From the NCBI GenBank assembly GCA_003213135.1, contig QCNT01000004.1, positions 76,956 through 125,543 on the forward strand: 48,588 bases of DNA. Reading direction: 5' to 3'. This document shows positions 38,444-47,916 of this stretch, one piece after another. The first letter of the stretch is position 1; each line of letters opens with the position of its first letter. The notes beneath the pieces are model-generated. The model was given only the letters and a program-made list of their open reading frames with translations. It had not been told where the DNA came from and searched no databases. The stretch comes from Pelagibacteraceae bacterium AG-426-I15 (GTDB lineage Bacteria; Pseudomonadota; Alphaproteobacteria; Pelagibacterales; Pelagibacteraceae). The translations under genes and the position numbers were made by a program.

Positions 38444-39532
38444 TTAATTAAAAAGAGATTTTATAAATATCCACTTTGGCATTTTAAAAATAACTATTAT
38501 GTCATCTATCAAATTACTTTTATTTGATAGAAATTTTATAATACTGTTATTAAATATACCAAAAAGATTATAGAATAATTTAGGCATAATTTCAGGATGT
38601 GTATCTAAAACTTTCATAAATATTTTATCAAAAAGGTAGTATTTTTTCTTTATTTGAAATCTTTTAACCTCATTAATATTATCAATATTCATTCTAATAT
38701 ATTTTGAATGTTCTTGAATATTTAAAAATGTATAGCCAGTACTAGCTCTTGTCATTCCACCTGCAGTTCCGATATTTATGAAATTTTTTTTATTTTTTTG
38801 TTGTACAGGAAAAAGTGGTATTGCTCCTTTTTCTGAGTATTTAATTTTATAATCAGACCTTTTTAAACGCATCCATCGCCAAAGCCATTGATCGATTTGT
38901 TTTTGGTAGTCAAATAATTTTTTATCGTATTTTGAAAACCAAGTCGTTTCTACAAGCATACGATTTTTTTTGAACGGCAGAGTATATATAAAGTGCACTG
39001 AATTTCTTTGATCACAATCGAAATTCATCAAATCAAATTTATTAAGGTCATAAGTCGGTTCTTTAGATTTGAATTCTATTTCTATACCGTAAAAGTGTTG
39101 CCAGTAATTTACTTTATCTCTACTAAATTTTTTTATAGATGGTACGCTATTAAAAACGACAGACCCTTTAAACTGGGACTTATTTAATTTTTTTTTGAAA
39201 ATGATATTTTTATTTTTTTTTAATTTTTTAAGTATTTTTTGGTAAAATTTCCCACTATCTATACTTTGGTAGGGATAAGAGCCGCAATCACTTTCACTAT
39301 TTTTTCCTAAAAATTCAGTTACATAAAATCTATCCCAACTCTTTTTTACACAATCATTAAAATTATGATTTATTACTTTCCAATATGACCAAGTTTTATC
39401 CCTTTTATAATTTGTTCTTGGATCAATAATAGCAAGTTTTTTATTTTTTAACTTTTTATGAAGATCTAGTTCATAAGCCAAAGATAATCCCGCACATCCA
39501 CCCCCAATTATTATGAAATCAAATTCTTTCAT
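38444..39532 (-). CDS. crtY: Lycopene beta-cyclase
   Basis: Closes both ends of lycopene to form beta-carotene. 362 residues. FAD-binding start IIIGGGCAGLSLAYEL (8-23), then IDPRTNYKRDKTWSYW, MLVETTWFS (catalytic ET region), and GTAGGMTRASTGYTFLNIQ (flavin region). The family is the CrtY type, not CrtL heterodimers. Overlaps crtB by 14 bases. Confidence 0.93.
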   Translation of the reverse strand: MKEFDFIIIGGGCAGLSLAYELDLHKKLKNKKLAIIDPRTNYKRDKTWSYWKVINHNFNDCVKKSWDRFYVTEFLGKNSESDCGSYPYQSIDSGKFYQKILKKLKKNKNIIFKKKLNKSQFKGSVVFNSVPSIKKFSRDKVNYWQHFYGIEIEFKSKEPTYDLNKFDLMNFDCDQRNSVHFIYTLPFKKNRMLVETTWFSKYDKKLFDYQKQIDQWLWRWMRLKRSDYKIKYSEKGAIPLFPVQQKNKKNFINIGTAGGMTRASTGYTFLNIQEHSKYIRMNIDNINEVKRFQIKKKYYLFDKIFMKVLDTHPEIMPKLFYNLFGIFNNSIIKFLSNKSNLIDDIIVIFKMPKWIFIKSLFN

Positions 39533-40382
39533 TAAGCCTTATATCCTCGTTAATTAAATTGTATTCAATTTCTTTCTCATATTCTTTTGGTCTTATAAAA
39601 AAAAGCTTTACAAAGTCTATAAGGGAAAGAATTGTTTGAATTGTCTTGCTAAAATTTGAAACATAAATTTTCCCAGCTTTTTGATAATCAAAAATATCTT
39701 TTTTTTCCAATATTTTTTTTCCTATATGTCTGTAAACTCTTCTAGCAACAATAATTGAAAAACGACAGCTAAGTGGAATATCTTTTATACCCTCAAAAGA
39801 ACTATCGTAAAAAGTATTAGCTTTTGAAATAGTATTTTTTATATCCAAGAAAATATCTTTAGATTTTTTTATCAAATAAGTTCTGTTTTTTTTTTCATCT
39901 TCAACCACATCTCGCGCTATATTTGTAAGTTGCATCGCAATACCCAAATCAATTGCCCTTTGTAAAGATTCTCTTTTTTTTACTCCAAATATTTTTGCCA
40001 TCATTAAACCCACTGTTCCGGCAACTCTATAAGAGTAAATCAGTAATTCCTTTTCTGTTTTCATTCTTACTTCTTTTTTTAGATCAGAACTCACTCCATC
40101 AAATAAATCGTCAACTATTTTCTTTGAAATATTTATTTCATCCATTAAATCCCACATATTCTTTATTACACTGTTATTTTTATTTTTCCCCTCAAACTTT
40201 TTCTTAAATTCTTCAAGCTCTTTTTTTTTTATTTCTAAGTCTATATTTTGGTCAGCGATATTATCTATTGTTCTACAAAAATCGTATAAAACAGAGCACT
40301 TAAAATAGATTTTTTTTGGTAAAAAGAAACCTGACCAATTAAACGATTTTGCATAAATAGATAAATAATTTTTTGTAGTCAT
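39519..40382 (-). CDS. crtB: Phytoene synthase
   Basis: Joins two geranylgeranyl diphosphates to phytoene. 287 residues, all-helical trans-isoprenyl diphosphate synthase fold. The first Asp-rich motif is DFCRTIDNIAD (34-44) and the second is TNIARDVVED; YSYRVAGTVGLMMAKIFG lies between. Start overlaps the crtI stop by one base. A GGPP synthase gene (crtE) is not in the window. Confidence 0.94.
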   Translation of the reverse strand: MTTKNYLSIYAKSFNWSGFFLPKKIYFKCSVLYDFCRTIDNIADQNIDLEIKKKELEEFKKKFEGKNKNNSVIKNMWDLMDEINISKKIVDDLFDGVSSDLKKEVRMKTEKELLIYSYRVAGTVGLMMAKIFGVKKRESLQRAIDLGIAMQLTNIARDVVEDEKKNRTYLIKKSKDIFLDIKNTISKANTFYDSSFEGIKDIPLSCRFSIIVARRVYRHIGKKILEKKDIFDYQKAGKIYVSNFSKTIQTILSLIDFVKLFFIRPKEYEKEIEYNLINEDIRLNERI

Positions 40383-41848
40383 TATAAAATTTTATCTAGA
40401 ACCTTAGCCGATGAGATAACACCTGGCATTCCCGCACCAGGATGTGTCCCGGCCCCAACAAAATATAAATTATCAAAAATTTCTGATTGATTATGAAATC
40501 TAAAATAAGCCGATTGAGAGAATTTTGGTTGTATAGAAAATCCTGAACCATGTAGAGTAGCTAAATCTTTTTCAAAATAATCTGGTGTGAGGTAAAAATC
40601 GCTAACAACATTTTCTTTAATACCAGGCAAAACTGATTTATTCATTTTATCTAAAACTAAGTTTTTAAATTTCTCACCTTCCTCTGACCAATTAATATTT
40701 GATAAATTATTTGGTACTGGAACAAGTACATAAAAAGCGTCTTGACCATCCGGTGCCATATTAGGATCTGTTGCCGAGGGTCTGTGTAAATAATAACTTA
40801 TGTCATCTGAAAGCTCCTTTTTCTCAAAAATTTTTTCCAAATGCTTCTCATAAGATTTTCCAAATACAATAGTGTGATGCGCAACGTCTTTGTATTGTTT
40901 TTTTGATCCAAAATAATAAACAAAAAGTCCCATTGAGTAATCCATTCTTTTCATTTTTTGTTTAAATAAAAAATTATAATTATTTTTTGATTTAATTAAA
41001 TTTTTATATACGTTAGGTGGATCAGAGTTACAAACAACGTAATCACAATTAATAATTTCTGATTTATTAATTTTTACAGCTTTAATATTTTTTTTATTAG
41101 AAATTATCTCTGTGACTTCTGTATTTTTCATAATCTTGATACCTTCCTCGTTCATTAATTTCTCAAGAGCTTTCACTACATTCCCAGTACCACCCATTGA
41201 GTAATGTATTCCCCATTTTTTTTCTAAAAACAGAATTAGTGTATATATTGAAGTAGTAGTAAAAGGGTTGCCGCCTACCAGAAGAGGGTGCATGCTAAAA
41301 ACTCTTCTTAACTTCTCGTTTGATATATAATTTGAAACTAGCCCATAAACAGATTTATAACTTTTTAAATTTAGCAAAGCAGGTATCTGTTTGAGCATAA
41401 AAGATAAATTATTAAATGGTTTATCTGACAGGTCAGTAAAACCTTTGTCAAAAATTTTTTCTGTAAAATTAACTAACTCATTATATCCTTTAAAGTCTTT
41501 CTCAGAAAATTTTTTAATCTCTTTCTCCATTGACTTTTCATGACCTGAATAATCAAAAGTATCACCGTCGCTAAAAACAAAACGATACCACAAAGACAAT
41601 GGAACTATGTCTACGTAATCAGAAATTTTTTTATTAAATAGTGAAAACAATTCCTCAAAAAGGTAGGGAGCAGTTATAACTGTAGGGCCGCCGTCGTAGA
41701 TAAAACTGCCCTTTTTAAAAACTCTAGCTCGTCCTCCTAAGTCAGGATGTTTTTCGACGAGTATAATATCGAAACCCTTAGCCTTTAATCTAAGAGCTGA
41801 TGCAAGACCCCCAAAACCTGATCCAATAACTATAACCTTTTTAGCCAT
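40382..41848 (-). CDS. crtI: Phytoene desaturase (lycopene-forming, CrtI type)
   Basis: Desaturates phytoene to lycopene with FAD. 488 residues. N-terminal VIVIGSGFGGLASALRL (5-21), DLGGRARVFKKGSF, YDGGPTVITAPYLFEELF, and the C-terminal GAGTHPGAGMPGVISSAK, all typical of CrtI. It starts only 16 bases after the atpF stop, with no terminator or clear promoter between, so read-through from the ATP synthase genes is likely. Confidence 0.96.
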   Translation of the reverse strand: MAKKVIVIGSGFGGLASALRLKAKGFDIILVEKHPDLGGRARVFKKGSFIYDGGPTVITAPYLFEELFSLFNKKISDYVDIVPLSLWYRFVFSDGDTFDYSGHEKSMEKEIKKFSEKDFKGYNELVNFTEKIFDKGFTDLSDKPFNNLSFMLKQIPALLNLKSYKSVYGLVSNYISNEKLRRVFSMHPLLVGGNPFTTTSIYTLILFLEKKWGIHYSMGGTGNVVKALEKLMNEEGIKIMKNTEVTEIISNKKNIKAVKINKSEIINCDYVVCNSDPPNVYKNLIKSKNNYNFLFKQKMKRMDYSMGLFVYYFGSKKQYKDVAHHTIVFGKSYEKHLEKIFEKKELSDDISYYLHRPSATDPNMAPDGQDAFYVLVPVPNNLSNINWSEEGEKFKNLVLDKMNKSVLPGIKENVVSDFYLTPDYFEKDLATLHGSGFSIQPKFSQSAYFRFHNQSEIFDNLYFVGAGTHPGAGMPGVISSAKVLDKIL

Positions 41849-41864
41849 ATGAAAGGATCTTACT

Positions 41865-42362
41865 CTAGATAGATTTGTTTTTTAAAATCTTTTTTGCCTC
41901 TTCAATGCTTGAAATATAAATTTTATCAAGTTTTTTCTTATCAATAGAGTTTTTTATGAGCCTTTCGACCGAGCTAATTGCAATATTGATAGATGTATTT
42001 TTAATATCTTTAATAGCCTGTATCTTCATTTGTTTAATTTTATCTTCTGAAGATTTTTTTCTACTTTCTATGACTTTATGAAAATCCTCGTTTGTCTTAA
42101 TTATATTTTTTTCAGCTTGATTTTTAGCATTAGAAATTAATTTCTCTATTTCCTTTTTAGATCCACTTATTTTATTTTCGTACTCACTCAATATATTTTT
42201 TGCATCATCTTTTAATTTTTCAGCATTGTCCAAATCATTTTTTATTTTCTTAATACTTTCGTTCATAGATTTATCGATTTTTTGTGGTACTTTTAAATAA
42301 ATAATCAAACCAATAAAAATTAAAAAAGATATTGCAACCCAAAATGTAGCATCAATAATCAT
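41865..42362 (-). CDS. atpF: ATP synthase F0 subunit b
   Basis: Peripheral stalk subunit. 165 residues: one N-terminal span (about 8-24), then a long charged coiled coil (30-160). The second of two b-type genes, two bases after b'. Which is b and which is b' follows gene order in alphaproteobacteria (a, c, b', b). F1 genes are not adjacent, as usual in alphaproteobacteria where F0 and F1 operons are separate. Confidence 0.88.
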   Translation of the reverse strand: MIIDATFWVAISFLIFIGLIIYLKVPQKIDKSMNESIKKIKNDLDNAEKLKDDAKNILSEYENKISGSKKEIEKLISNAKNQAEKNIIKTNEDFHKVIESRKKSSEDKIKQMKIQAIKDIKNTSINIAISSVERLIKNSIDKKKLDKIYISSIEEAKKILKNKSI

Positions 42363-42364
42363 AT

Positions 42365-42934
42365 TTATTTCTCAGTCTCTCTTTTTAAAACCTCTGACAC
42401 TGTTGCCTTAATACTGCTTTGGTTTCCATCTTCTCCAAATATATCTTTTAGCAAATAAGAAACAATGTCTTCAGAAATATTTATTATCTTTTTGCCAGAT
42501 TCAGATTTAAATTTTTTTACCTCATTTTCAGCAGCAATTATTTCTTTTTCAATTTCTTTTTGCATTTTAACCTTTTTTGTTTGGATATCTTCGTTTAATC
42601 TTTGTCTATTATCAGAAAGAATTTTCTTGGACTCTAATTTAGCATTTTCAATAAGATCTTGATAAGTTTTAAGTTTCTTTTCTGCTTCCTCTTTAAACGT
42701 TTTTGCTTCTTCTAAATCTTTTCTTATTTTATTTTCTCTTGCATCTAAGTTGTCTTTTATTTTTGGAATAAAAATTTTAGCCATCAATATATAAATTGAT
42801 GAGAAAATAATAATCAACCAAAAAGCTTGAGATGCCCAATATTTTGGGTCGAGCTGAGGCATACCAGCCTCAGCTGCACCAAGATTTCCACCAATAGATG
42901 TGGAAAAAATTAAAAAAATAAAAAAATTTTTCAT
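42365..42934 (-). CDS. atpF': ATP synthase F0 subunit b'
   Basis: Second peripheral stalk subunit, forming a b/b' heterodimer. 189 residues from the ATG at 42934 (MKNFFIFLIF). A TTG twelve bases upstream could also start it. It has an N-terminal hydrophobic stretch resembling a signal sequence, the MPQLDPKYWASQAFWLIIIF block typical of alphaproteobacterial b', then a coiled coil (60-170). Lies between atpE (21 bases) and atpF (2 bases). Confidence 0.88.
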   Translation of the reverse strand: MKNFFIFLIFSTSIGGNLGAAEAGMPQLDPKYWASQAFWLIIIFSSIYILMAKIFIPKIKDNLDARENKIRKDLEEAKTFKEEAEKKLKTYQDLIENAKLESKKILSDNRQRLNEDIQTKKVKMQKEIEKEIIAAENEVKKFKSESGKKIINISEDIVSYLLKDIFGEDGNQSSIKATVSEVLKRETEK

Positions 42935-42955
42935 TCTTCTAATCAAAAACTAAAA

Positions 42956-43183
42956 TTAAAACGCGAAAAGTATTATTAGCGCCACAACCAATCCAAAAAG
43001 ACCAGTTGCCTCAGCTAACGCAAACCCTAAAAGTAGATTAGGGAATTGCTTTTGGGCTGCAGACGGGTTTCGCATTGCTCCAGATAAATAATTTCCGAAG
43101 ATTATTCCAATACCAACACCAGCGCCAGCCAAAGCAATAGCCGCCAAACCTGCTCCTATCATTTTTGCTGCTTCTAGTTCCAT
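42956..43183 (-). CDS. atpE: ATP synthase F0 subunit c
   Basis: Forms the proton-driven rotor ring. 75 residues, two spans, with the Gly/Ala helix GAGLAAIALAGAGVGIGIIF (10-29), the polar loop RNPSAAQKQ and the ion-binding E58 in FALAEATGLF. The residues around E58 are those of proton-type rings; the Gln of sodium-type rings is missing. A strong AGGAGG precedes the start, unlike its neighbours, which fits the need for many copies. Confidence 0.97.
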   Translation of the reverse strand: MELEAAKMIGAGLAAIALAGAGVGIGIIFGNYLSGAMRNPSAAQKQFPNLLLGFALAEATGLFGLVVALIILFAF

Positions 43184-43193
43184 TTTTCCTCCT
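43184..43193 (-). promoter_or_regulatory. Strong ribosome binding site of atpE
   Basis: The reverse strand reads AGGAGG, four A, then the atpE ATG. A perfect six-base Shine-Dalgarno match is exceptional in this window, where most genes have none. It probably raises c-subunit output above the rest of the operon. Confidence 0.7.
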
Positions 43194-43201
43194 TTTTTTT
43201 G

Positions 43202-43936
43202 TTAGTGATGTAAATTTAATGCATCGTTTAAATAAATGCATGTCAAAATTGCAAATACATAGGCTTGTAAAAATGCTACCAATATTTCCAAACCTGTAAG
43301 TGCAACAGAAAAAGTAAGAGGAAGCCATCCTCCAATTAAACCTAAACTAATAACAAATCCCCCAAAAACTTTTAACATTGTATGACCAGCCATCATGTTA
43401 GCAAACAGTCTTACTGATAAACTTATAGGTCTACTTAAATATGAAATAATCTCTATGATACTAATAATTGGTAACAATACTATTGGAACTCCGCTAGGCA
43501 CAAATATTTTTAAATATTTAAAACCATGCATAATAAACCCAAGTATTGTCACTCCAATAAAAATAAATATTGCAAAAGTTAATGTTACAATTATATGGCT
43601 TGTTACAGTGAAAGAATAAGGCAACATTCCAACCATATTGCAAAATAAAATAAAAATAAAAAGACTAAATATAAACGGAAAATAAGGTTTTGCCTTTTTC
43701 CCAGCCGTATCGCTAATCATTTTAGCTATAAAGTTATAAAGCATTTCAGACAGAAGTTGAGCTTTGTTTGGAATTAACTTTTTTTCTCTTGTCCCCAGTA
43801 ATAACAATAAAGCTAATAGCGCAGCACTTATCAGCATGAAGAGACTAGCGTTTGTGAATGATAAATCAACACCAGATATTTCAATTTCCGGTCCAATTCT
43901 GTGTACTTTAAATTGGTGCATTGGATTTGTAGCCAT
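43202..43936 (-). CDS. atpB: ATP synthase F0 subunit a
   Basis: Membrane stator half-channel for protons. 244 residues with about six spans. The essential arginine is R176 in SLSVRLFANMMAGH; the earlier MLYNFIAKMI and NMVGMLPYSFTVTSH blocks are typical. Three bases after atpI and 18 before atpE. Order atpI-a-c-b'-b is the standard alphaproteobacterial F0 operon. Confidence 0.96.
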   Translation of the reverse strand: MATNPMHQFKVHRIGPEIEISGVDLSFTNASLFMLISAALLALLLLLGTREKKLIPNKAQLLSEMLYNFIAKMISDTAGKKAKPYFPFIFSLFIFILFCNMVGMLPYSFTVTSHIIVTLTFAIFIFIGVTILGFIMHGFKYLKIFVPSGVPIVLLPIISIIEIISYLSRPISLSVRLFANMMAGHTMLKVFGGFVISLGLIGGWLPLTFSVALTGLEILVAFLQAYVFAILTCIYLNDALNLHH

Positions 43937-43939
43937 GGT

Positions 43940-44230
43940 CTAATCTTCTTCCTTTTGCATTCTTTTTGCAGCTCTAAAAACATTAATGATCCCTGCAGCG
44001 GCTCCAAAAAGAAAGAATAAAATTATTAATATTGGTTTAGTATCAAACCAGCTATCTAAAATAAACCCAATAATTGTCCCAACTATTACTGCAGCCACCA
44101 GTTCAGTGCCTAACTTAAAAGCATTTCCAAGATAATTACCTTTACCTTTATTGTCTCTAATATTATTTTTACTTGCTAACTTAGATTTTGCAATTTTAAG
44201 GCGAGTTTTAATGTCCTCTAAATCACTCAT
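43940..44230 (-). CDS. atpI: ATP synthase assembly protein AtpI
   Basis: 96 residues. Polar, Lys-rich N-terminus (1-30), then two spans (about 42-60 and 66-84) with Gly-rich packing (VGTIIGFILD, LFGAAAGIINVFR). Matches the AtpI/F0F1-ATPase subunit family that helps assemble the c ring. Starts six bases after the smc stop, so ATP synthase transcription may begin upstream of smc. Confidence 0.85.
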   Translation of the reverse strand: MSDLEDIKTRLKIAKSKLASKNNIRDNKGKGNYLGNAFKLGTELVAAVIVGTIIGFILDSWFDTKPILIILFFLFGAAAGIINVFRAAKRMQKEED

Positions 44231-44236
44231 TTAATT

Positions 44237-46816
44237 CTAGGCTACTAATTCCTCTGCTTTTTGTAAATTGACAGCAACCAATTTACTAATTCCTTTTTCA
44301 GGCATTGTTACACCGTAAAGTCTATTCATTTTAGACATCGTAAGAGCATGGTGGGTTATAATTATAAATTTAGTTTTAGTTACTGAAACTAGCTCATCTA
44401 ATAAAGCACAAAATCTTGTTACGTTTGCATCATCCAAAGGAGCGTCTACCTCATCTAAAACACATATCGGAGATGGATTTGTTAAGAAAATTGCAAATAT
44501 TAATGATAAAGCTGTAAGGGCCTGTTCTCCACCTGATAATAAAGTAATAGACTGCAATCTTTTACCTGGAGGAGAAACCAACATTTCTAAACCAGCTTCT
44601 AATGGATCGTCAGAGTCAACTAATTCAAGTTTTGCATTTCCACCGTTAAATAATTTTGTATAAACCTCATTAAATTTTTTGTTAACCCTCGAAAAAGCCT
44701 CTAGTAATCTTTCCCTACCTCTTTGGTTAAGTTCATTAATACTTGTTTTTAATTTAACTATTCCAGAGACAAGGTCCGATCTGTCATCCTCCATTTTTTT
44801 AATTGTTTCTCTAAATTTTTCAGTTTCTATGTCCGCTCTTAAATTCACTGACCCCATAGCCTCTCTGCTTTTTTTTCTTTTTTCTAACTTTTGCTCTTGT
44901 TCAGATACTGAGGGCACTTTCTCATTTTCAATAATATCAGACATATTTAGTAAGTTGTTTATATTTTCTATTTTTAATTCATTTTTCATCATATAAGTCA
45001 GATCCATTTTTCTCTGATCAATCCCCTCGGTCGTTGCCTCGAGCCTCGCCTTACCTTCTCTAAGAACAGTAAATTTTTCCTGAACAGATTTTAAATCTTG
45101 GTTTATTGCCTCATATTTTTTTTCAATTTTTTCTATTTCCACTTCAATTTCTTCATTATTCTTTTTTGTATTTTCTAAATTTTGAAGATTTTGTCCTTTG
45201 TTTATTGCAATTTTTTCAGGATTTTTTTGATTTTCCTCCAATTCTATTTCTTTATCTTTTTTTCTCACATTCAGTTTAATAAGCATTTTTTCTGAATTTA
45301 ATTTTAGGTCTTTCCAATTTTCTAATTCTTGATCAATACTTTTAATTCTTTCTTTTCTTTTAATAGAGTTTTCGTGGATAGATTCATTTTTTCCAAACAT
45401 CGATGCATATTTTTCTTGCGAGGTTGTTATAGCATCTACCAATTCTTTTAAGTTAATAGTTAGATCATTTATCTCAATCTTTTGGATGTTACTTATTTGA
45501 TTTTGCAAAATATCATTAAGCTTAATATTATTTTTTTTTGCTTCATCGATTCTATTTTCATTGAGCAAAATATTTGTATTCTCACCAATTTCTTTTAATT
45601 CCTCAAGAATTTTTTGCTGACCTTTAAAATCATATGAACTCAGTTTTTTTTCAAAAAAATTATCAAATTTTATTTGTCTGTCTTTTAATTCTTGTTTGGC
45701 AATGTCAAGATTTATTTCTGACTTTTTCTCGATGTCGTGTAATTCCCTTTCTGTTCTTATTAGCTCATTTTTTTCCTCTAAAATTCTTTTTTCATTCAAG
45801 GATGCATCTAATGATATACTCTTCTCTCTTTCTATATCAGAGTCGATAAGCTTTATATTTTCTAAAATTTTTCTATTTAATTCTTTAATATCCTTTTCTC
45901 TCTCATTTAAATTTGAAATTTCTAAATTTAACTTTTGCATCTTTGAAAGATTTTCCATTTTTTTATCTCTTAATGGTTGAATTTTTTTATTTTCTTCTTC
46001 TACTAAAATATTGTTTTGATTTAGATCTTTCTCAACTTGGCCTATTTCATTTTGAATTTCATCTGTCTTTTTTTTAATTTCATTTTTTTCTTGATCAATT
46101 TCTTGTATTTTAAGATAATATAAACCTGCTTCAATAGACCTAATTTCTTGAGAGATCTCTTTATACTTACTAGCTTCTTGAGCTTGCTTTTCTAAATTTT
46201 CTAATTGCTTCTCCTGTTGACGCTTAAGTTCATCTGCTCTTTTAAGATTATTTTCAGCTGCACCCAATCTAGTTTCTGCTTCGTGTCTTCTTAAATGTAT
46301 GCCGGAGATTCCAGCTGCTTCTTCTAAAACAGACTTTCTTTCGGAAGGTTTCGCTGTAACAATCATTCCGATTCTTCCCTGACTTATCATTGATGGAGAA
46401 TGCGCTCCTGTCGACAAATCTGCAAAAAAAGTTTGTGCATCTCTTGCCCTTACTTCTTTATTGTTAATGTAGTATTTCGAACCTTTCTCTCTCTCGATCT
46501 TTCTTTTTATAATCACCTCATCCAAATCAAGGTACTGACCCTGACCTTCTTTTTCTGAGTTATCTATCATTATAGATACTTCCGAAATATTTTTAGCGGG
46601 CCTGTTAGATGTTCCTGAAAAAATTACATCTTCCATTCCAGAGCCTCGCATACTCTTCGCCGATGTTTCGCCCATGCACCACCTTAAAGCTTCAACTATA
46701 TTGGACTTACCACAACCATTAGGACCAACAATTCCAGTTAATCCCTCTTCAATAAAAAAATTAGTTTTATCAAAAAAAGATTTAAAACCCGATATTTCTA
46801 TTTTTTTAAATTTCAT
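44237..46816 (-). CDS. smc: Chromosome segregation protein SMC, short and apparently hinge-less
   Basis: ATP-driven chromosome organiser. Heads are clear: Walker A GPNGCGKSN (31-39), Q-loop region and SQGRIGMIV (145-153), EEAAGISG (165-172); C-terminal signature LLSGGEQALTALSL (759-772), Walker B ICVLDEVDAPLDD (784-796) and D-loop region, ITHH switch (820-823). The whole protein is 859 residues against about 1150-1190 normally. Residues 175-650 read as continuous Lys/Glu-rich coiled coil. I find no hinge domain (no Gly-rich GVxGxLxDL or similar) and no CxxC zinc hook. The least coil-like part is 390-480. No frameshift or stop is seen. A single base separates it from the thioredoxin gene upstream. 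Confidence 0.93.
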   Translation of the reverse strand: MKFKKIEISGFKSFFDKTNFFIEEGLTGIVGPNGCGKSNIVEALRWCMGETSAKSMRGSGMEDVIFSGTSNRPAKNISEVSIMIDNSEKEGQGQYLDLDEVIIKRKIEREKGSKYYINNKEVRARDAQTFFADLSTGAHSPSMISQGRIGMIVTAKPSERKSVLEEAAGISGIHLRRHEAETRLGAAENNLKRADELKRQQEKQLENLEKQAQEASKYKEISQEIRSIEAGLYYLKIQEIDQEKNEIKKKTDEIQNEIGQVEKDLNQNNILVEEENKKIQPLRDKKMENLSKMQKLNLEISNLNEREKDIKELNRKILENIKLIDSDIEREKSISLDASLNEKRILEEKNELIRTERELHDIEKKSEINLDIAKQELKDRQIKFDNFFEKKLSSYDFKGQQKILEELKEIGENTNILLNENRIDEAKKNNIKLNDILQNQISNIQKIEINDLTINLKELVDAITTSQEKYASMFGKNESIHENSIKRKERIKSIDQELENWKDLKLNSEKMLIKLNVRKKDKEIELEENQKNPEKIAINKGQNLQNLENTKKNNEEIEVEIEKIEKKYEAINQDLKSVQEKFTVLREGKARLEATTEGIDQRKMDLTYMMKNELKIENINNLLNMSDIIENEKVPSVSEQEQKLEKRKKSREAMGSVNLRADIETEKFRETIKKMEDDRSDLVSGIVKLKTSINELNQRGRERLLEAFSRVNKKFNEVYTKLFNGGNAKLELVDSDDPLEAGLEMLVSPPGKRLQSITLLSGGEQALTALSLIFAIFLTNPSPICVLDEVDAPLDDANVTRFCALLDELVSVTKTKFIIITHHALTMSKMNRLYGVTMPEKGISKLVAVNLQKAEELVA

Positions 46817-46817
46817 A

Positions 46818-47417
46818 TTATAAAATTTTTTCTATTATTTTTTTAAAATCATTATAACTATGTTTTCCATCATATTTTTTCTCGTTTATAAAAATAGTTG
46901 GGGTAGACTCGATCGAATATTTTTTTTGCGCCATTATTCTTTCATTTAAAATTTCATTTTCGATATTTTCATCTTTTAAACAATTATTAATTCTATCATT
47001 GTTCAAACCATGTTTCTTTGCAATTTTACTTAAATTAGAATTTATATTGTTAATATCTGAGCCGCTGGCCCAATCATCCTGCTTATCATAAATCTCATTT
47101 AATAATTCGATTCTTTTTTTACCATTTTGAACACAATTTAAAATTTTTTCACCATTCAAAGCGGCTAAATCTAAGGGAAACCCATGATGCTCATATCTAA
47201 CAATATTTGTATCAATAAAATCTTGTTTTAATTTTTTGAAGATTTTTTTGTGAAAATTTGCACAATGCGGACATGTAAGGGAGGAAAAAACTTTAATAAT
47301 TACTTTAGAGTCTTTATTTCCCAAAGAAGTTAATTCAACTTTTTCATCTGAAAAAACTATGCCAGAGGCTGAAAAAAAAATTAAAACAAATAATGATAAA
47401 ATTTTTTTTACGGTCAT
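46818..47417 (-). CDS. DsbA-like periplasmic thioredoxin-fold protein
   Basis: 199 residues with a signal peptide (about 1-23, cleavage near FSDEK). The redox motif is CPHC (C49, C52) in SSLTCPHCANFH, and the cis-proline loop is STPTIFI. Belongs to the thioredoxin_4/DsbA group of oxidoreductases that oxidise or isomerise exported thiols. Its placement directly before smc also occurs in other alphaproteobacteria. Two more Cys (94 and 146 approx.) may form an internal disulfide. Confidence 0.88.
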   Translation of the reverse strand: MTVKKILSLFVLIFFSASGIVFSDEKVELTSLGNKDSKVIIKVFSSLTCPHCANFHKKIFKKLKQDFIDTNIVRYEHHGFPLDLAALNGEKILNCVQNGKKRIELLNEIYDKQDDWASGSDINNINSNLSKIAKKHGLNNDRINNCLKDENIENEILNERIMAQKKYSIESTPTIFINEKKYDGKHSYNDFKKIIEKIL

Positions 47418-47421
47418 AATA

Positions 47422-47916
47422 TCACTTCAATTTTTTGTTTATAAATTGTGTTGCTAACTTATTTAGTTTTTTCTTAAGACCTAAATTTTCTATCTCATTA
47501 ATTTTTTTATTATAGTTTTTATTTTCTTTATAATTAAGAAAATTTTTGTCTTTAATATTTATTTTATCATCTAATAAAATTATTTTTATCTGATTAATAA
47601 AAGTATAACCAAAAAATGAATTAATTTTATCCTTAATATCTTTTTTCGAATATTCTACTTCAAGTTGGTCACCATGACCAACATTAAGGAAAAGAATACC
47701 ATCAGCGAATTCTTTATTAGTTTTTATAGATTTTGGATAGCAAATTTTTGAGATTTTTTTGCCCACAATTTCAGTCCAATTATTTAATATTGAGGAATAA
47801 TTGTGACCTCCTTTTTTTAGGATTTTATTAACTGCTCTAGGCAAGGAGTTACCAACAGTCCTAAGGCCTTGAATAGAATACATTGATTTATTAATATATT
47901 TTTTTTTCTTATGCAT
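47422..47916 (-). CDS. DUF721/DciA-like protein
   Basis: 164 residues. The N-terminal part with VNKILKKGGHNYSSILNNWTEIVG (about 29-52), then LFLNVGHGDQLEVEYSKKDI, matches the DUF721 family, which includes DciA, a loader or partner of the DnaB helicase. The C-terminal 60 residues are Lys/Asn-rich and unconserved. The ATG at 47916 abuts the mutY ATG on the other strand (ATGCAT). An in-frame ATG at 47883 would leave a 27-base leader and still keep the whole domain, so the start is uncertain. Confidence 0.72.
   Translation of the reverse strand: MHKKKKYINKSMYSIQGLRTVGNSLPRAVNKILKKGGHNYSSILNNWTEIVGKKISKICYPKSIKTNKEFADGILFLNVGHGDQLEVEYSKKDIKDKINSFFGYTFINQIKIILLDDKINIKDKNFLNYKENKNYNKKINEIENLGLKKKLNKLATQFINKKLK

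Follow-up and report, generated by a model that had tools for sequence, protein, structure and literature searches.

The SMC protein of SAR11 is almost certainly an orthologue of bacterial SMC from which the hinge has been deleted, with the two arms joined as a hairpin and each arm shortened; this reading draws on sequence, structure models and genome context. The gene in question lies in a window of 48,588 nucleotides (the whole stretch of DNA analysed) from Pelagibacteraceae bacterium AG-426-I15 and encodes an 859-aa SMC, hereafter P0001, whose open reading frame (Table 1) contains no internal stops on translation. The hinge is regarded as the part that holds two SMCs together, according to passages of PMC10512200. 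Its deletion probably took place in the ancestor of the order. SAR11 are among the most abundant marine bacteria, and their cells may fold the chromosome with a condensin that is open at the tip.

The SMC_prok_B profile (TIGR02168) matches P0001 with 659 bits against a curated cut-off of 567.35, the better of the two matched stretches being residues 3-500, and Pfam SMC_N spans residues 4-844. The nearest solved chains by sequence are SMC heads (3zgx, 5xg3), and a Foldseek search with the P0001 model returns SMC heads and SMC or condensin chains as best matches. The ATPase heads are intact, with Walker A (31-39), signature (759-772) and Walker B (784-796) exactly at the residues given in an earlier note on this DNA. 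The key residues of what we take to be the Walker A, Q-loop, signature, Walker B, D-loop and H-loop motifs show no variation across 21 members of the order. On profile score and gene order, P0001 is therefore identified as SAR11's orthologue of bacterial SMC, which serves as ATPase in the SMC-ScpAB condensin.

Table 1. Position and basis of the smc gene, its parts and its conserved neighbours in the window.
Feature	Coordinates	Strand	Basis
smc, hingeless SMC (P0001), 859 aa	44237..46816	-	ORF; TIGR02168 659 bits vs cut-off 567
N-terminal half of ATPase head, residues 1-170	46307..46816	-	profile match, alignment, AlphaFold
Walker A, residues 31-39 (GPNGCGKSN)	46700..46726	-	sequence; invariant in 21 order members
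N-terminal arm helix, residues 171-419, kink at 395-396	45560..46306	-	AlphaFold/DSSP
Apex turn, residues 420-422; site of the ~136-aa hinge in other alphaproteobacteria	45551..45559	-	alignment, AlphaFold, lengths
C-terminal arm, residues 423-688, break at ~614-660	44753..45550	-	AlphaFold/DSSP; end set by head motif
C-terminal half of ATPase head, residues 689-859	44240..44752	-	alignment, AlphaFold
ABC signature region, residues 759-772 (LLSGGEQALTALSL)	44501..44542	-	sequence, alignment
Walker B and D-loop, residues 784-796 (ICVLDEVDAPLDD)	44429..44467	-	sequence, alignment
DsbA-like thioredoxin gene, directly upstream of smc, conserved neighbour	46818..47417	-	Pfam Thioredoxin_4
dciA, conserved neighbour upstream of smc	47422..47916	-	Pfam DciA

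The gene order in the window is dciA-dsbA-smc. In each of the five further loci scanned (L119, L163, L083, L185, and L074), a DsbA-like thioredoxin gene lies upstream of smc, and in L163 both genes closest to smc are thioredoxins. dciA is recognised near smc in L083 (SAR11 family f2) and L185 (family f25), and its match lies just below the cut-off in L119 (Devosia, long SMC). The one candidate neighbour scanned in L074 is not recognised as dciA. Because dciA and a thioredoxin gene precede smc in SAR11, f25 and the long-SMC Devosia, the window gene very probably sits at the orthologous smc locus. The genome of the window (976,624 bases, 88% complete) gives a single SMC match, and among the order matches listed, paired rows of one genome are adjoining pieces of one gene. 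A full-length second SMC, which the earlier note had raised as the finding to look for, is thus seen neither in this genome nor among those order matches.

Pfam SMC_hinge (PF06470) has no match in P0001 at E<=1 and finds nothing in the window's own genome or in the 147 SAR11 genomes of the order. This model is weak for the class, in which it matches only 58 of 190 alphaproteobacterial genomes, and therefore a class-specific hinge profile of 136 positions was built from an alignment of 63 long alphaproteobacterial SMCs. A reduced profile, made without nine divergent training rows, was applied to those nine and to the SMCs of L073, L074, and L106, and the 12 held-out hinges scored 67-138 bits. 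In contrast, the first profile reports only 19 of 64 hingeless SMCs at all, with a top score of 1.7 bits, whereas shuffled copies score up to 4.6. These 64 are the collected full-length proteins of 780-900 aa, with L073, L074, and L106 excluded, and some genomes are possibly represented in two collections. In P0001, no significant match to the hinge profile lies inside residues 380-490, where the earlier note had asked for one to be sought, and a MAFFT alignment places a deletion across the entire hinge block of other alphaproteobacteria. The class-specific profile, the held-out controls and the shuffles together rule out a hidden, diverged hinge of known type.

A hinge of known type encoded as a separate gene is likewise ruled out. 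A genome-wide search with A2, a 19-row alphaproteobacterial hinge alignment, finds a hinge in 119 of the 190 class genomes (six of the 119 contributed rows to A2) and in none of the 147 order genomes at E<=1, separate genes included. An SMC match is present in 128 class genomes, nine of which have no hinge match: G000 and G001 belong to the order, G169 and G300 to family f25, and the remaining five (G162, G190, G210, G282, and G332) have partial SMC frames only, of 274-541 aa. As for a zinc hook, the CxxC motif is absent from the arms of all 64 hingeless SMCs, 52 of which have some cysteine there; the cysteines of P0001 are at positions 35, 47, 785, and 803. The absence of both a recognisable hinge and a zinc hook, reported for one protein in the earlier note, therefore stands, and at the sequence level the loss of the hinge is confirmed in P0001 and across the order, beyond a single gene.

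Structure models were obtained with AlphaFold for P0001 as a monomer, using 21 order sequences (mean pLDDT 75.6, pTM 0.44), and for L080, a 798-aa relative (mean pLDDT 73.0, pTM 0.38); neither model is highly confident. The P0001 model has helices at 171-394, 397-419, 423-446, 449-530, and 532-613, and shows no strands where the two arms meet. The L080 model consists of a helix at 173-389, a three-residue turn, and helices at 393-470 and 472-553. By a loop motif, 220 residues precede and 236 follow the turn in 798-aa proteins (six of seven), against 249 and 266 in 857-aa proteins (three of 35, the pattern being unmatched in the others) and 250 and 267 in 859-aa proteins (one of two). Relative to the 798-aa class, the 857-aa class therefore has 29 more residues before the apex turn and 30 more after it, and this matched change in length argues for an antiparallel hairpin. 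As modelled, the arms form an antiparallel helical hairpin whose apex is a turn of three residues.

Long hinge-bearing alphaproteobacterial SMCs have median arms of 325 and 348 residues around a 136-residue hinge (42 of 63 were measurable), whereas the SAR11 arms reach the turn after 220-250 and 236-267 residues, and with the turn taken as apex the hingeless arms average ~228 and ~258. In passages of PMC5344682, Bürmann et al. describe natural arm-length modes of 238, 341, and 515 and an engineered Bacillus Smc that is functional in an arm window of 253-267. The hingeless arms agree roughly with the 238 mode and the 253-267 window, the boundaries used being not exactly the same. The spacing from head to head in 63 hingeless SMCs falls into discrete classes of 457-474, 516-521, and 541-542 residues, which recall the length periodicity reported for SMC arms.

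A search of the order with P0001 gives an SMC match in 136 of 147 genomes and in 100 of the 105 good ones. Among the matches listed, no open frame exceeds 891 aa and a single one is interrupted by a stop within the matched region; ten of the listed genomes consist of one contig. Named Pelagibacteraceae records, many of which are presumably single-cell genomes, have SMC forms of 798, 809-814, 857, and 863 aa. An assembly artefact is an unlikely source of the missing hinge, because the matches recur in 136 of 147 genomes, single-contig genomes are among those listed, and the named records have the same lengths.

Hingeless SMCs are also present in f25, a family outside the order of the window (L185, 817 aa; L186, 803 aa). 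These two form one hingeless clade with L105 (817 aa), whose record is titled Pelagibacteraceae. A tree of heads was made from 44 proteins chosen from those collected, over 431 columns, the C-terminal head of L082 being cut by position and not by motif. The tree sets SAR11 apart from f25 and requires two changes of the hinge label, whereas an AU test does not reject a tree in which SAR11 and f25 are joined as one clade (p 0.271). The f25 branch is long, and the letter composition of this family is unusual; the sequences fit either one loss of the hinge in SAR11 and f25 or two. L073, L074, and L106, which we assume to be of HIMB59 type, come from a small-genome alphaproteobacterial lineage and have SMCs of 869-881 aa that keep the hinge on arms of ~205 residues. 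As hingeless relatives they are ruled out by hinge scores of 80-102 bits (72-97 with the reduced profile), and joining them to SAR11 gives an AU p value of 0.0367. Since these SMCs are short-armed and hinge-bearing, short arms alone do not mean hinge loss, and arm shortening and hinge loss are separable.

Selection was estimated from 106 non-independent pairs drawn from 35 proteins of 857 aa (28 coded genus g3 and seven named records). Median omega rises from the head halves (0.015 and 0.000) through the arms (0.045 each) to the apex (0.091), consistent with an SMC that is maintained by selection. The claim of a clean frame without decay in the earlier note is borne out by these values and by the lack of internal stops. 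In the same set, most of the heads have a mean pairwise identity of >=0.85 and the least conserved stretch is residues 381-460, at 0.37-0.52, unlike what a conserved apex interface would show. In the 798-aa set (seven proteins), the apex window is at 0.52 and three other windows are lower, and in the f2 (six) and f25 (three) sets the lowest-identity windows lie elsewhere than the apex; a conserved apex interface is possible in these three sets. Large hydrophobic residues near the apex stay within two SD of the arm mean.

The partner proteins are retained in most of the order. The search for scpA and scpB proposed in the earlier note finds ScpA in 124 and ScpB in 125 of 147 order genomes, and the two matches adjoin in the genomes compared by eye. 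Neither is found in the window's own genome (G000, 88% complete) or in G090 of the same genus (95%), which hints at a loss of scpAB in this genus. Against such a loss, scpB, the partner gene searched for across the genus, scores above its cut-off in 18 of the 31 genomes there, and because of these matches an incomplete assembly is the likelier reason.

Hinge loss without a substitute is unexpected, because Bacillus Smc is described in PMC5344682 as non-functional once dimerisation at the hinge is abrogated. Two SMCs would still pair via ATP-dependent engagement of the heads, and the bridge that ScpA forms from neck to cap, together with ScpB, would help to hold the pair. Contacts between arms lying side by side would also hold it. 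At its far end the complex would lack a permanently closed ring, and it would act on DNA as a kleisin-tethered clamp or tweezer. An SMC-ScpAB held by its kleisin, by head engagement and by arm contacts, and open at the tip, is the favoured mechanism among those weighed here, at about even odds. The earlier note, having correctly seen a hinge lost without decay, offered two routes to dimerisation, namely a reduced element at residues 390-480 or heads plus partner proteins. The second route, in which the dimerisation itself is presumed, is the better fit, since most genomes of the order retain scpA and scpB. The first finds no positive support: in the P0001 model the region holds the helices 397-419 and 423-446 with a three-residue turn and no strands, the 798-aa relative has a bare turn, and in the 857-aa set the lowest conservation coincides with it.

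The hairpin apex may still be a minimal dimerisation element, with apices packed end to end or side by side and the ring closed. Two short helices flank the apex of P0001 at a pLDDT of ~71-85, apex and arms are conserved to a similar degree in the f2, f25, and 798-aa sets, large hydrophobic residues just after the turn rise up to 1.8 SD over the arm mean, and PMC5344682 indicates that in Bacillus it is not critical which kind of dimerisation domain is present. Against this stand the 798-aa model, with nothing but its three-residue turn, the 857-aa set, in which the apex combines the lowest identity with the highest omega, and the lack of CxxC; closure of the ring at the apex is considered unlikely. 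Alternatively, the apices could be bridged by a partner protein or by a hinge-like protein too diverged to detect. The searches covered SMC, ScpA, ScpB, and hinges only, which leaves room for such a partner, whereas the alphaproteobacterial hinge profile finds none in 147 order genomes at E<=1, and the strongly variable apex of the 857-aa set is ill-suited to a conserved binding site. A bridging protein is thus improbable.

A domain-swapped dimer, in which the turn opens and the N-terminal arm of one chain pairs with the C-terminal arm of the other to give a rod with composite heads at both ends, is very unlikely. A two-helix chain with a short turn could swap in principle, and the matched length changes fit a swap as well as a hairpin. 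Both monomer models, on the other hand, are helix-turn-helix, although a monomer prediction cannot discriminate a swap. For the gene itself, decay or frameshift is ruled out by the open frame and omega. The wider proposal that chromosome organisation is dispensable in streamlined cells, and that SMC is losing function under relaxed constraint, is scarcely credible. It can appeal to the variable apex of the 857-aa set, to small genomes (~1-1.5 Mb for the nearly complete ones listed) and to the 11 of 147 order genomes, including five of the 105 good ones, that give no SMC match. However, the median omega is low in all regions (0.000-0.091), the frames among the matches listed are open except for one with a stop inside the match, the catalytic residues are invariant, and the partners are kept in most genomes.

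A hingeless SMC as a kind is already in print, since Sussfeld et al. 2025 report 'hinge-less' SMCs in an abundant marine actinobacterial clade (Actinomycetes; PMC12153180). According to the passages of that paper drawn on here, the protein is not found alongside a regular SMC. It shares with the SAR11 SMC a head and coiled coil, the lack of a hinge and of a zinc-hook motif, and an origin in ocean bacteria. The SAR11 SMC, with a head, a predicted hairpin coil, no hinge and no CxxC, agrees with the 'hinge-less' marine description; the likeness is one of description, the actinobacterial protein being assigned to Actinomycetes. The words 'pelagibacter' and 'sar11' have 0 occurrences in the main text of PMC12153180, and ScpAB and arm lengths are treated here for the SAR11 SMC and not in the passages of that paper used. 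No published report of a hingeless SMC in SAR11 was found in a literature search that named SAR11 or Pelagibacter in part of its queries.

Compared with the bacterial SMC of SMC-ScpAB (TIGR02168), the SAR11 SMC is alike in its head halves, signature, Walker motifs and coiled-coil arms, in its gene neighbourhood, and in the presence of ScpA and ScpB in most genomes of the order. It differs in having no hinge, in arms that are each ~60-110 residues shorter by the boundaries used here, and in an apex predicted to be a helical turn. Rad50/SbcC and the archaeal ASRP/ClsN proteins likewise combine an ATPase head with a coiled coil and lack an SMC hinge. However, passages of PMC12153180 and PMC9389158 give the CxxC zinc hook to Rad50/SbcC and to the vast majority of ASRPs, respectively, whereas it is missing from the hingeless SMC arms. 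Engineered proteins provide a precedent for the proposed mechanism: in the parts of PMC5344682 cited, Bacillus with a Rad50 zinc hook in place of the Smc hinge shows normal growth on rich medium, and Mini-Smc and Smc(zinc hook) resemble the SAR11 SMC in that shortened arms are tolerated in certain length ranges and the hinge fold is replaceable. Unlike the SAR11 SMC, they are engineered and keep a dimerisation domain. Hingeless SMCs were probably filtered out of the natural-sequence survey of that paper, because it demanded an alignable dimerisation domain. The mechanism finds further published support in yeast, where the MukB hinge can stand in for the Rad50 hook (PMC6969161). SMCL-1 of Caenorhabditis is likewise an SMC-like head protein without a hinge, but in the account of PMC5373644 it also lacks the coils and conserved ATPase residues and is a condensin-binding regulator.

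What is new here is a hingeless SMC spread across an order of Alphaproteobacteria, most of whose genomes also encode ScpAB. Added to this are controls by which a hidden or separately encoded hinge of known type is excluded, a hairpin anatomy in which the lengths of the two arms change in step, the short-armed hinge-bearing comparators and a second hingeless family (f25). Ring models of DNA entrapment depend on the hinge, and a hingeless lineage with constrained heads and ScpAB mostly kept is a natural experiment on the need for a closed ring. It is conceivable, if slightly doubtful, that an entire order runs its chromosome organisation on a condensin without any dimerisation domain, that ring closure at the hinge is dispensable for SMC-ScpAB and its motor is an open-tipped clamp, and that the hinge has been lost more than once in marine lineages (SAR11, perhaps f25, and the actinobacterial clade). 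In practical terms, SAR11 SMCs are short, naturally hingeless condensins for reconstitution.

Directly downstream of smc on the same strand, the window contains the ATP synthase F0 genes atpI, atpB and two b-type subunits (41865-44230). Next to a flavin amine-oxidase-like gene lies a squalene/phytoene synthase-like gene (39519-41848), and this pair appears to belong to an isoprenoid or carotenoid cluster.
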